From the NCBI RefSeq assembly GCF_002844195.1, contig NZ_PEND01000001.1, positions 434,001 to 498,000 of the forward strand: a DNA stretch of 64,000 nucleotides. The letters are read 5' to 3'. A program made the position numbers and the translations under genes. Shown in pieces: positions 55,591-62,481 of the stretch; position 1 is the first letter of the stretch, and the number at the start of each line of letters is the position of its first letter. A model generated the notes under the pieces. It had not been told where the DNA came from and searched no databases. It saw only the letters and a list, made by a program, of their open reading frames with translations. The DNA comes from Halegenticoccus soli. GTDB taxonomy: Archaea > Halobacteriota > Halobacteria > Halobacteriales > Haloferacaceae.

Positions 55591-56337
55591 ATGGAAGCAA
55601 CAGTACGCGACCTGAACGGCGAGGAGGCGGGCGCGCTCGACCTCCCCGAGGTCTTCGAGACGCCGTACCGACCGGACCTCATCAAGCGCGCCGTCCTCGC
55701 CGCGCAGGCGAACCGAAAGCAGGCCTACGGCGCGGACCCGTACGCCGGGATGCGGACCCCGGCGGAGTCTCTGGGCAGCGGCCGCGGCCTCGCGCACGTT
55801 CCGCGCGAGAACGGCCGCGCCCGACGCGTCCCCCAGACGGTCGGGGGGCGCAAGGCGCACCCGCCGAAGGCGGAGAAGGACCAGGGCAAAGGAATCAACA
55901 AGAAGGAGCGTCAGCTCGCCACGCGCTCTGCGATCGCCGCGACGGCGAACGCCGAGCTCGTCCGCGAACGCGGCCACCGGTTCGACGACGGCGTCGAGCT
56001 CCCGCTCGTCGTGAGCGACGACTTCGAGGACCTCGTGAAGACGAAGGAGGTCGTCGAGGCGCTCGAATCGCTCGGCGTGTACGCCGACATCGAGCGGGCC
56101 GACGACAACAGGAAGGTGAAGGCGGGCCGCGGCAAGACGCGCGGGCGCAAGTACAAGCGCCCCAAGTCGATCCTGTTCGTCACGAGCGAAGAGCCGTCGC
56201 GCGCGGCGCGCAACCTCGCCGGCGCCGACGTCGCCACCGCGGCGGAGGTCAACGCGGAGGATCTCGCGCCCGGCGCGCACGCCGGCCGGCTGACGATCTT
56301 CACCGAGAGCGCGATCGAGGGGGTGGCGGGCCGATGA
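55591..56337 (+). CDS. rpl4: 50S ribosomal protein L4 (L4e/L1e)
   Basis: 248 residues, archaeal form with the globular domain and long loop lining the peptide exit tunnel (YAGMRTPAESLGSGRGLAHVPR, RVPQTVGGRKAHPPKAEKD). Starts seven bases after rpl3. Its stop overlaps the start of a 21-codon frame as ATGA. Confidence 0.98.
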   Translation: MEATVRDLNGEEAGALDLPEVFETPYRPDLIKRAVLAAQANRKQAYGADPYAGMRTPAESLGSGRGLAHVPRENGRARRVPQTVGGRKAHPPKAEKDQGKGINKKERQLATRSAIAATANAELVRERGHRFDDGVELPLVVSDDFEDLVKTKEVVEALESLGVYADIERADDNRKVKAGRGKTRGRKYKRPKSILFVTSEEPSRAARNLAGADVATAAEVNAEDLAPGAHAGRLTIFTESAIEGVAGR

Positions 56338-56399
56338 GTTCCGTCGCACGCGTCGCGCACTACGACCTTGTCGTTCTCACGCGAGGTGAGAGCCGATGA
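56334..56399 (+). CDS. Possible 21-residue bridging peptide between rpl4 and rpl23
   Basis: The frame reads [21 protein letters not shown] and stops. Its ATG overlaps the rpl4 stop as ATGA (56334-56337), and its TGA overlaps the rpl23 start as ATGA (56396-56399). Nearly every junction of this operon uses such coupling, and ribosomes ending rpl4 would have to cross this frame to reach rpl23. The peptide has no known motif. It may serve only to carry ribosomes across the 58-base spacer. Confidence 0.45.
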
Positions 56400-56647
56400 G
56401 CGTGATCGAACACCCGCTCGTCACCGAGAAGGCGATGAACGAGATGGACTTCGACAACAAGCTCCAGTTCGTCGTCCACCTCGACGCGGGCAAATCCGAG
56501 ATCCAATCGGAGATCGAATCGCGCTACGACGTGACCGTCACGAAGGTGAACACCCAGGTCACGCCGAAAGGAACGAAGAAAGCGACAGTCACGCTGGGCG
56601 AGGACGACGACGCGACCGAGATCGCCTCGCGCATCGGGGTGTTCTGA
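56396..56647 (+). CDS. rpl23: 50S ribosomal protein L23
   Basis: 83 residues. The family opening [20 protein letters not shown] and the C-terminal [23 protein letters not shown] are conserved. It sits at the tunnel exit, where signal recognition particle docks. ATG at 56396 is coupled to the preceding mini-frame by ATGA. Confidence 0.97.
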
Positions 56648-57803: not shown

Positions 57804-58274
57804 ATGGGAATCAACTACAGCGTCGAGGCCGACCCGGACACGACGGCGAAAGCCATGCTCCGGGAGCGGCCCATAAGCCTCAAGCACAGCAAGGCCATCG
57901 CCCGAGCCATCAAGGGCATGACCGTCGCCGAGGCCGAGGAGTACCTCGAGGCGGTCATCGCGGGCGAGCGCTCCGTCCCGTTCAAGCAGCACAACACGGG
58001 CGTCGGTCACCGGAAGGACATCGACGGCTGGGACGCCGGGCGCTACCCGAACAAGGCCTCGAAGGACTTCCTGAAGCTCATCGAGAACGCGAAGAACAAC
58101 GCGACCGAGCGCGGGTTCGACGGCGAATCGATGCGCATCATGCACGTCGCCCCCCACAAGGTGGGCGAGCGCATGGGGCGCAAGCCGCGCGCCATGGGTC
58201 GCGCGACGCCGTGGAACACGACGCTCTGCGACGTCGAGCTGATCATCGAGGAGCCAGAGGAGGTCGAGGCCTGA
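57804..58274 (+). CDS. rpl22: 50S ribosomal protein L22
   Basis: 156 residues. [20 protein letters not shown], the [20 protein letters not shown] tunnel loop and [23 protein letters not shown] are typical of archaeal L22/L17e. Its stop TGA shares one base with the rps3 ATG (TGATG). Confidence 0.97.
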
Positions 58275-59275
58275 TGGCGGACGAACACCAGTTCATCGAG
58301 GACGGGCTCCAGAAGTCCCAGATCGACGAGTTCTTCGCGTCCGAACTCGGCCGCGCCGGCTACGGCGGCATGGAGGTCGCGAAGACCCCCATGGGGACGC
58401 AGATCGTCCTCAAGGCCGAAAAGCCCGGCATGGTCATCGGCAAGGGCGGCAAGAACATCCGGAAGATCACCCGCGAGCTCGGACAGCGGTTCGACCTCGA
58501 CGACCCGCAGATCGACGTGCAGGAGGTCGACGAGCCGGACCTCAACGCCCGGATCGTCGCGGACCGCCTCGCCAACGCGCTCGAGCGCGGCTGGTACTTC
58601 CGGAAGGCCGGCCACACGACCATCGACCGGATCATGGACGCGGGCGCGCTCGGCGCCGAGATCGTCCTCTCCGGGAAGGTCACGGGCGCGCGGTCGCGCG
58701 TGGAGAAGTTCAACCGCGGCTACATCAAGCACAACGGCGAGCCGGCCCAGGAGGTCGTCGACGAGGGGCAGGGCGTCGCCGTCATGAAGCTCGGCACCAT
58801 CGGCGTGACGGTGAAGATCATCCCGCCGGGGGCGGAGCTCCCGGACGACTTCGCCATCGCCGAGGACGCCGAGGTCGAGGCGGTCGAGCAGGTCGCCGAG
58901 ACCGAGGGCGTCGAGGGGCTCCTCGAGGAGCCCGAGGACGAGCTCGTCCCGGACGCCGAGGCCGACCAGGAGCAGGTCCCGGCCGAACACGCCGGCGAGG
59001 AGGAGGCCGAGGAGGCCATCGACGAGGAAGTCGTCGAGGAGATCGTCGAGGAGTCCGGCGACGTGGCGTCGCGCAGCGAGTCGGCCGAGCCGGATCCGCA
59101 GGAGGAACCCGTCGAGACGGGCGACGTCGAGGCGGAGGAGCCGGCGCTCGACGAGGACGAGGAGGCGACCGACGACGTCGACGCGGAGTACTCCGAGCTC
59201 GACGAGGAAGTCGAGCAGGAGGCGGCGGACCTCGTCGCCGAGATGGAAGCCGACGAAGAGGAGGGTGAACAGTAA
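58274..59275 (+). CDS. rps3: 30S ribosomal protein S3 with long acidic tail
   Basis: 333 residues. The KH domain is at residues 15-90 ([19 protein letters not shown]), followed by the C-terminal S3 domain with [15 protein letters not shown]. From about residue 215 to the end there is a tail made mostly of Glu, Asp, Val and Ala, roughly 118 residues, longer than in many archaea. ATG at 58274 overlaps the rpl22 stop. Confidence 0.97.
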
Positions 59276-61202: not shown

Positions 61203-61942
61203 CGAAGCACCAGAAACGACTCTCGGTACCGAACTCCTGGCCGGTCGAACGGAAGGAAGCCACGTGGACGGTCAAAGCCGGTGCCGGTCCGCACGGCGCG
61301 GCCGGCGTCCCGCTTCTCATCCTGCTGCGGGACGTGCTCGGCTACGTCGACTCCGCGAAGGAGGCGCGCTACGCGCTGAACCAGGGCACCGTCCTGGTCA
61401 ACGGCGACGCCGTCTCCGACGTGCGCCGACCCATCGGGATGTTCGACATCCTGGCGTTCACGGAGCGCGAGGAGTACTACCGCGTGTTCCCCGACGAGGG
61501 CGGTCGGCTCGCGCTGACGCCCGTCGACGCCGACGCGGCGGACAGCCGCCTCGGGAAGGTCGTCGGCAAACGCCAGGTGACCGGCGGCGACTTCCAGCTG
61601 TCGCTGCACGACGGGACGAACGTCCGCGTCGAGGACGGCAGCGAGTACAGCGCCGGCGACTCGCTCGTCATCGACAACGAGACGAAGGAGATCGTCGCGC
61701 ACTTCTCCTACGAGGAGGGTGCGCTCGTGACCGCCGTCGCGGGCGCTCACGCCGGCGAGATCGGCACGATCGAGGAGATCACCGTCACCGCCGGCAGCGG
61801 GCCGAACACGGTCCGCGTCGCCCAGGAGGGCGAGGAAGGCGAGGACGCCGGCTTCGAGACGATCGCCGACTACGTCGTCGTCATCGACGAGAACTTCACC
61901 GGCGGCGAGGACGCCGTCACCACCGGAGGTGAGAGCGAATGA
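61199..61942 (+). CDS. rps4e: 30S ribosomal protein S4e
   Basis: 247 residues, archaeal/eukaryote-specific. [16 protein letters not shown], the S4-like RNA-binding region [20 protein letters not shown] and the KOW-like C-terminal [12 protein letters not shown] are present. Coupled by ATGA to both rpl24 and rpl5. It sits in the body of the small subunit. Confidence 0.97.
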
Positions 61943-62481
61943 GCGAGAGCGAAGGCGAAGCCGAAGCCGAAGCCGAGTTCCACGAGATGCGCCGGCCCCG
62001 CGTCGAGAAGGTCGTCGTCCACATGGGCGTCGGCGAGGGCGGTCGCACGCTCGCCAACGCGGAGGAGATCCTGGAGGACATCACCGGCCAGGAGAGCGTC
62101 CGAACGACCGCAAAGCGCGCCGGGCAGGACTTCGGCGTCCGCCCCGGCACGCCGGTCGGCGCGAAGGTGACGCTCCGCGGCGAGGCGGCCGAGGAGTTCC
62201 TGCGGACGGCACTGCCGCTCGCGGACCTGTCGCGCTCGCAGTTCGACGACACCGGCAACTTCAGCTTCGGCGTCGAGGAGCACACGGAGTTCCCGAGCCA
62301 GGAGTACGACCCGAACATCGGCATCTACGGGCTGGACGTGACGGTCAACCTCGTCCGCCCCGGCTACCGGGTTCGGAAGCGCGACCAGGCGAACCGCCCG
62401 ATTCCGTCGGGTCACCGCCTGACGCCCGAGGACGCGATCGCGTTCCTCGAATCGACCTTTGACGTGGAGGTGAACGAATGA
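61939..62481 (+). CDS. rpl5: 50S ribosomal protein L5
   Basis: 180 residues. [41 protein letters not shown] and [26 protein letters not shown] are typical of archaeal L5/L11e. An acidic N-terminal repeat (EGEAEAEAE) is a haloarchaeal addition. It holds 5S rRNA and contacts P-site tRNA. Confidence 0.97.

Follow-up and report, generated by a model that had tools for sequence, protein, structure and literature searches.

The ribosomal protein genes rpl4 and rpl23 are separated by 58 nt in the window, a stretch of 64,000 nt from the haloarchaeon Halegenticoccus soli, and this gap is best explained by a mobile translation relay: a dispersed insertion of 62 bp, made up of a 55-bp core and a 7-bp duplication NNATGAN, that would hand ribosomes over from rpl4 to rpl23. 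We give this reading a probability of roughly 0.75. Comparisons between genomes demonstrate that the insertion is precise, that the element is dispersed among operon junctions which its frame bridges, that its copies share covarying hairpins and a direct repeat, and that there is no selection at the level of the encoded peptide. That the relay is translated, that hairpin melting matters and that the element moves is inferred.

A short frame links rpl4 and rpl23

The original prediction had described a 21-codon frame with ATGA at both ends between two genes lying 58 nt apart, and the sequence of the window and its open reading frames confirm this layout. The micro-ORF reads ATG AGT TCC ... CGA TGA (56334-56399), i.e. 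21 sense codons followed by a stop, and it forms a 4-nt ATGA overlap at either end. The features of the region are:

55591 to 56337, plus strand: rpl4 (uL4), the upstream gene (open reading frame; Pfam Ribosomal_L4, 5.8e-40)
56319 to 56326, plus strand: Shine-Dalgarno-like GGGGGTGG at the end of rpl4, now preceding the micro-ORF start (sequence and junction alignment)
56332 to 56338, plus strand: left 7-nt direct repeat CGATGAG, target-site duplication (end-to-end base correlation across copies)
56334 to 56399, plus strand: putative relay micro-ORF, 21 codons and stop (sequence and open reading frame; frame retained in every well-scoring copy)
56335 to 56337, plus strand: TGA stop of rpl4, within the micro-ORF start (sequence)
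56339 to 56393, plus strand: core of the inserted element, 55 bp (empty sites in relatives; boundaries from direct-repeat analysis)
56342 to 56364, plus strand: hairpin 1, partly decayed in the window copy with 7 of 9 pairs (family covariation)
56367 to 56400, plus strand: hairpin 2, Shine-Dalgarno motif and AUG of rpl23 paired with an upstream complement (family covariation)
56383 to 56389, plus strand: GAGGTGA, element-borne Shine-Dalgarno motif for rpl23 in the 3' arm of hairpin 2 (sequence; columns 53-59 strongly conserved)
56394 to 56400, plus strand: right 7-nt direct repeat CGATGAG, including the rpl23 start (end-to-end base correlation)
56396 to 56647, plus strand: rpl23 (uL23), the downstream gene, its ATG (56396-56398) overlapping the micro-ORF stop (open reading frame; Pfam Ribosomal_L23, 7e-16)

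The gap is an insertion into a native overlap

We compared 110 rpl4-rpl23 junctions, 30 from relatives identified by whole-genome search and 80 from named haloarchaeal loci. In nearly all of them the two genes overlap directly, in the form ...GGAGGTGGCCGACCG-ATGAG..., and since nearly all relatives have this direct ATGA overlap, the window genome carries a precise insertion of 62 bp. Extra DNA at exactly this overlap is present in the window genome and in six other genomes of its family, which named relatives indicate to be the Haloferacaceae. A check of relatives with the same spacer found the frame preserved: Five of the six (G001, G007, G085, G192 and G068) have the 66-nt frame between rpl4 and rpl23, and the insert of G190 is shorter and has a frame of 19 codons. 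The insert supplies its own Shine-Dalgarno motif, and the motif at the end of rpl4 now lies upstream of the micro-ORF; where the window has GGGGGTGG at this place, most relatives have GGAGGTGG. A similar picture was obtained for the etfB-etfA junction, with 26 of 29 readable relatives having empty -4 overlaps and the remaining three carrying the element.

A family dispersed among operon junctions

BLAST searches with the rpl4-rpl23 junction also matched other places, e.g. the etfB-etfA junction of genome G034. Covariance models were made in three rounds, the final one from 49 copies, and resulted in 77 matches in the Halobacteriales; positions 56331-56400 of the window match with an E value of 4.9e-18, the window copy having been part of the training set. 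Copies are present in 52 of 392 genomes and 31 of 96 genera of the Halobacteriales (E <= 2e-4) and in 17 of 170 genomes of the window's family (E <= 1e-3), and the covariance model detected none outside the Halobacteriales in a phylum-wide sample of 393 genomes. The number of copies per genome is low, one to three, with three in G346. Model searches of the window and its genome revealed no convincing second copy; the final model did not return a match (E 6.5e-4) that an earlier model had given on a different contig. Rfam contains no covariance model that matches the element up to an E value of 1.

The great majority of the matches (71 of 77) bridge a stop/start overlap in an operon, in the sense orientation. 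For 67 of the 77, a script verified both the start on the upstream stop and the stop on the downstream start, and four further bridging copies were checked by eye: L073, in which the end of the contig cuts the downstream gene, L074 and L076, both at leuC-leuD, and L212. The six remaining matches (L218, L222, L227, L228, L235 and L236) are weak, with E values of about 1e-5 or higher, and lie away from overlaps; we treated them as chance matches. Among the junctions that harbour the element, as judged from gene context and Pfam matches of flanking genes, are rpl4-rpl23, rpl2-rps19, etfB-etfA, trpB-trpA, argB-argD, leuC-leuD and sucC-sucD, moreover those between an ABC ATPase and its permease, between a thiolase and its OB-fold partner, between two branched-chain permeases, and within a MoeA pair and a split methionine synthase pair.

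The length of the frame is remarkably constant: 50 of the 67 scripted frames have exactly 21 codons. The others have 19, 20, 22, 27, 28, 29, 36 or 37 codons, lengths of 16 and 32 were seen elsewhere, and all length variants (16-37 codons) remain in frame. The upstream offset is +1 in 64 and -2 in three of the 67 copies, the downstream offset -1 in 65 and +2 in two, and at each junction the scripted copies have a stop/start overlap (-4 or -1) as in termination-reinitiation (TeRe). L199 and L232 have a -1 overlap at their second junction (TGATG and TAATG, respectively), and both overlaps are an 8-nt ATGAGTAA in L212, a copy which we take to lie before a SpoVR-like gene; these cases indicate that the type of overlap is either kept or swapped for another coupling type. 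The rate of stops simulated from column conservation is 5% in the micro-ORF frame. Column conservation thus partly explains the stop-free frame, and its retention is indicated chiefly by the length variants and by the coincidence of both ends with a stop and a start.

Several variants were observed among the copies. L213, L229, L219, L223, L080, L233 and L234 belong to a related sub-family with longer frames that end in GWFA or similar (e.g. MSSVDRFLARGARETAPDDLTLATVGWFA and then the stop); it occupies sucC-sucD, an ABC transporter and other junctions, and its downstream starts are mostly GTG. L071 and L152 are composite versions of 36-37 codons that have a second module (roughly S-R-x-T-A-x-D-G-G) after the normal core, and G085 has a 16-codon version (L054) at the same symporter junction as L071.

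Two further readings were considered and discarded. Spread confined to plasmids was rejected, the good plasmid matches being only the two etfB-etfA copies of Natrarchaeobaculum, as was a phage-borne element: the phage collection gave no match, and one strict pattern was absent from viral contigs. A RefSeq-derived plasmid record annotates etfB and etfA and not the frame between them, which is only a hint because the PLSDB gene tables are incomplete.

Two covarying hairpins

The copies have two covarying RNA hairpins in common, the second of which holds the downstream Shine-Dalgarno motif and start codon. In the alignment of 49 copies, 89.6% of the cells of this structure pair, as compared to 79.4 +/- 0.6 for shuffled controls. 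Both sides have changed in 13 of the 22 pairs, including eight of the nine pairs of hairpin 1, and the covariation score is 0.283 versus 0.119 +/- 0.008 after shuffling and at most 0.098 for slid structures. The alignment was fitted to the model; an earlier, model-free alignment of seven sequences agreed in direction. The window copy alone folds no better than its shuffles (z -0.75), and its hairpin 1 is partly broken.

The downstream AUG is predicted to be less accessible in the presence of the element: Its median unpaired probability is 0.28 as compared to 0.63 at the in-silico empty site (p 0.003). This difference concerns only the AUG; for the Shine-Dalgarno region, much the same exposure is predicted whether or not the element is present. 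Moreover, an internal CTCATCG is complementary to both starts, with column 37 pairing with column 8 in 39 of the 49 copies and with column 70 in 38.

A proposed translation relay

In our model, the insertion splits the rpl4-rpl23 overlap into two identical ATGA overlaps that are linked by an in-frame relay cistron of 21 codons. A ribosome that finishes rpl4 would re-initiate at the AUG of the relay, translation of the relay would melt the hairpin that conceals the Shine-Dalgarno motif and the AUG of rpl23, and the ribosome would then stop at the second ATGA and re-initiate on rpl23. In this way, the element would preserve translational coupling despite the distance of 58 nt between the genes. 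In Haloferax volcanii, coupling at ATGA overlaps is strict and initiation cannot start de novo from Shine-Dalgarno motifs (PMC6728339), and gaps of 22-23 nt cut re-initiation to zero or near zero (PMC10666635). If this effect is valid for the relatives studied here, a gap of 58 nt would uncouple rpl23 unless the gap itself is translated, and a relay would be the simplest explanation. A coupling device had been one of two suggestions in the original prediction, and it stands by inference: The well-scoring copies, in about ten different lengths, all bridge the upstream stop to the downstream start in frame, and coupling in Haloferax is reported to be lost once the gap reaches about 20 nt.

Signs of movement

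A comparison of the two ends in 44 copies revealed the 7-nt direct repeat NNATGAN around the 55-bp core. The base at +4 is identical at both ends in 37 of the 44 copies (19.2 expected) and that at -2 in 29 (18.0 expected); for base -1 the agreement is weak (21 of 44, 15.2 expected; p about 0.05), and there is no correlation between the ends at positions -3 and +5. On a tree of rpl4 and rpl23, 18 carriers require 16 state changes (16.9 with shuffled labels), a scatter to which the deliberate choice of carriers from different genera contributes. The cores of copies from different families and junctions diverge by as little as 9-12%, less than the flanking genes, and are as close to each other as copies at one junction. 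Within the window's genus, the cores of two species (G000 and G001) differ by 0.11 and the flanks by 0.09 and 0.11, as expected after vertical inheritance. Taken together, the direct repeat and the patchy phylogenetic presence point to mobility.

No transposase, autonomous version or parent transposon was found. The 7-nt NNATGAN is a target-site duplication as in MITEs, but there are no terminal inverted repeats, the core ends TTCCGTCGCACG and GGAGGTGAGAGC not being inverted repeats of each other. IS200/IS605-derived, PATE-like elements have palindromes close to their ends and a fixed, unduplicated target beside the left end; the element resembles them in its two hairpins and its fixed ATGA target and departs from them in its direct repeat. 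Its internal CTCATCG (GTCATCG) is the complement of the CGATGAG (CGATGAC) overlap, and base 37, the first of this motif, varies with the target base at either end; this match may stem from a role as targeting guide or from selection acting on hairpin 2. It is a speculative and rather doubtful extension of the model that the element finds its target by base pairing, as a guided, translation-transparent transposon. The pairing, possibly with the mRNA, would then direct sense-oriented insertion to the stop/start overlaps of operons, and thanks to the relay frame even essential operons would take up the element without harm.

Alternative explanations

Long open frames are common in GC-rich DNA and the fold of the window copy alone is insignificant, as would be expected for an open frame that arose by chance within a neutral spacer. 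This idea is refuted by the comparative data and retains a negligible probability: the gap is an insertion found in few genomes that recurs with its frame elsewhere, and the frame recurs at about 70 junctions, bridges them in frame and shows covariation. That the frame encodes a functional micropeptide which has been retained in different operons was the other suggestion of the original prediction. The exact length of 21 codons in most scripted copies and the recognisable consensus MSSVARxARDDLIVLTGGESR agree with it; however, conservation at the peptide level was not found. An amino acid is altered in all 55 of 55 compensated cells of hairpin 1, the loop codon is hardly constrained (0.2-0.3 bits in columns 22-24), the differences between near-identical pairs number 23, 15 and 14 for codon positions 1, 2 and 3, i. 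e. without a bias for third positions, and NCBIfam has no match to the peptide. As amino acids vary freely to keep the RNA pairing and the codon positions bear no signature of peptide selection, the new micropeptide had to be given up as the function of the frame and is very improbable; by this comparison, the RNA structure is conserved rather than the peptide.

A regulatory RNA switch would account for the same hairpins differently: the structure would chiefly lower or condition downstream translation (attenuation), the short frame would act as the sensor, and selection would have set the element between genes for subunits of a complex. The predicted concealment of the downstream AUG by hairpin 2 is in line with this, as are the two exclusive states that the complementarity of CTCATCG to both starts could allow, and there is a natural precedent in mgtQ between mgtC and mgtB of Salmonella (PMC8092293). 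Yet the copies lie in unrelated pathways (ribosome, electron transfer, amino acids, transporters), most relatives of the carriers do without the element, and neither conserved sensor codons nor a ligand pocket are apparent, and we regard a switch as unlikely. Somewhat less likely still is an old inherited element with many precise losses between its direct repeats, the apparent mobility being the result of loss and gene transfer. The recurrence of the same junctions in distant families, the flank-like divergence of the copies within the window's genus and the 7-nt repeats, which could permit precise deletion, are compatible with this history, but the 16 changes for 18 carriers and the closeness of copies from different junctions and families speak against it.

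Relation to known systems

The element resembles TeRe at the ATGA overlaps of haloarchaea (Huber et al. 2019, 2023; PMC6728339, PMC10666635) in that its ends are canonical 4-nt overlaps after Shine-Dalgarno motifs and the genes flanking it often encode subunits of one complex. While TeRe is a mechanism at native overlaps, the inserted element duplicates the overlap and adds a relay cistron. With bicistronic designs, or two-cistron leaders, the element shares a short frame that crosses a structured downstream ribosome site and ends on its start codon, but the designs are synthetic and placed at the start of the transcript, whereas the element is natural, dispersed and located between operon genes. 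Such designs were used in PMC5995908 and PMC6302717. With mgtQ of Salmonella (PMC8092293) it shares an intercistronic short ORF overlapping stem-loops, which in the case of mgtQ control the downstream gene. However, mgtQ is a single locus that depends on acidic codons and is not described as dispersed.

Rickettsia palindromic elements are short palindromic mobile repeats within genes that extend the encoded proteins and are tolerated in coding context because they are in frame. They insert inside genes, whereas the element sits between genes and leaves both proteins intact. The SMRs, MITEs and PATEs of Haloquadratum walsbyi are, like the element, short and non-autonomous haloarchaeal elements; according to the sections of PMC3119063 considered here, PATEs have palindromes, MITEs have target duplications, and SMRs and MITEs have terminal inverted repeats, the SMRs without target duplication. 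The element differs from the SMRs, as those sections define them, in both respects. None of the three is described there as confined to stop/start overlaps or as bearing a relay frame, and by description this sets the element apart.

The open-access papers searched contain no description of the element, subscription literature being outside the scope of the search, and we know of no dispersed element that is confined to the stop/start overlaps of operons and carries a relay cistron. The components, i. e. coupling at overlaps and small palindromic mobile repeats, are known; as far as the open-access search goes, their union in one dispersed element is new. This claim would shrink if the element turned out to be derived, as an ordinary non-autonomous form, from a transposon already on record. 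Operon overlaps would seem to be closed to insertions because a gap of about 20 nt collapses coupling. An element that enters such overlaps, even those of ribosomal protein operons, with its own start, stop and Shine-Dalgarno motif would show how mobile DNA can remain transparent to the translating ribosome. It would provide dozens of natural termination-reinitiation experiments in archaea, with the same element in different operons and the operons with and without it, and a ready-made coupling part for archaeal genetics.

Further observations in the window

At positions 61926-61953, the ATGA junction of rps4e and rpl5 matches the 3' part of the element with 86% identity over 28 nt; this probably reflects only a shared Shine-Dalgarno and start context. 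At positions 58274-59275, rps3 continues into a long, acidic C-terminal tail of roughly 100 residues (354-aa open reading frame, counted from an upstream GTG).
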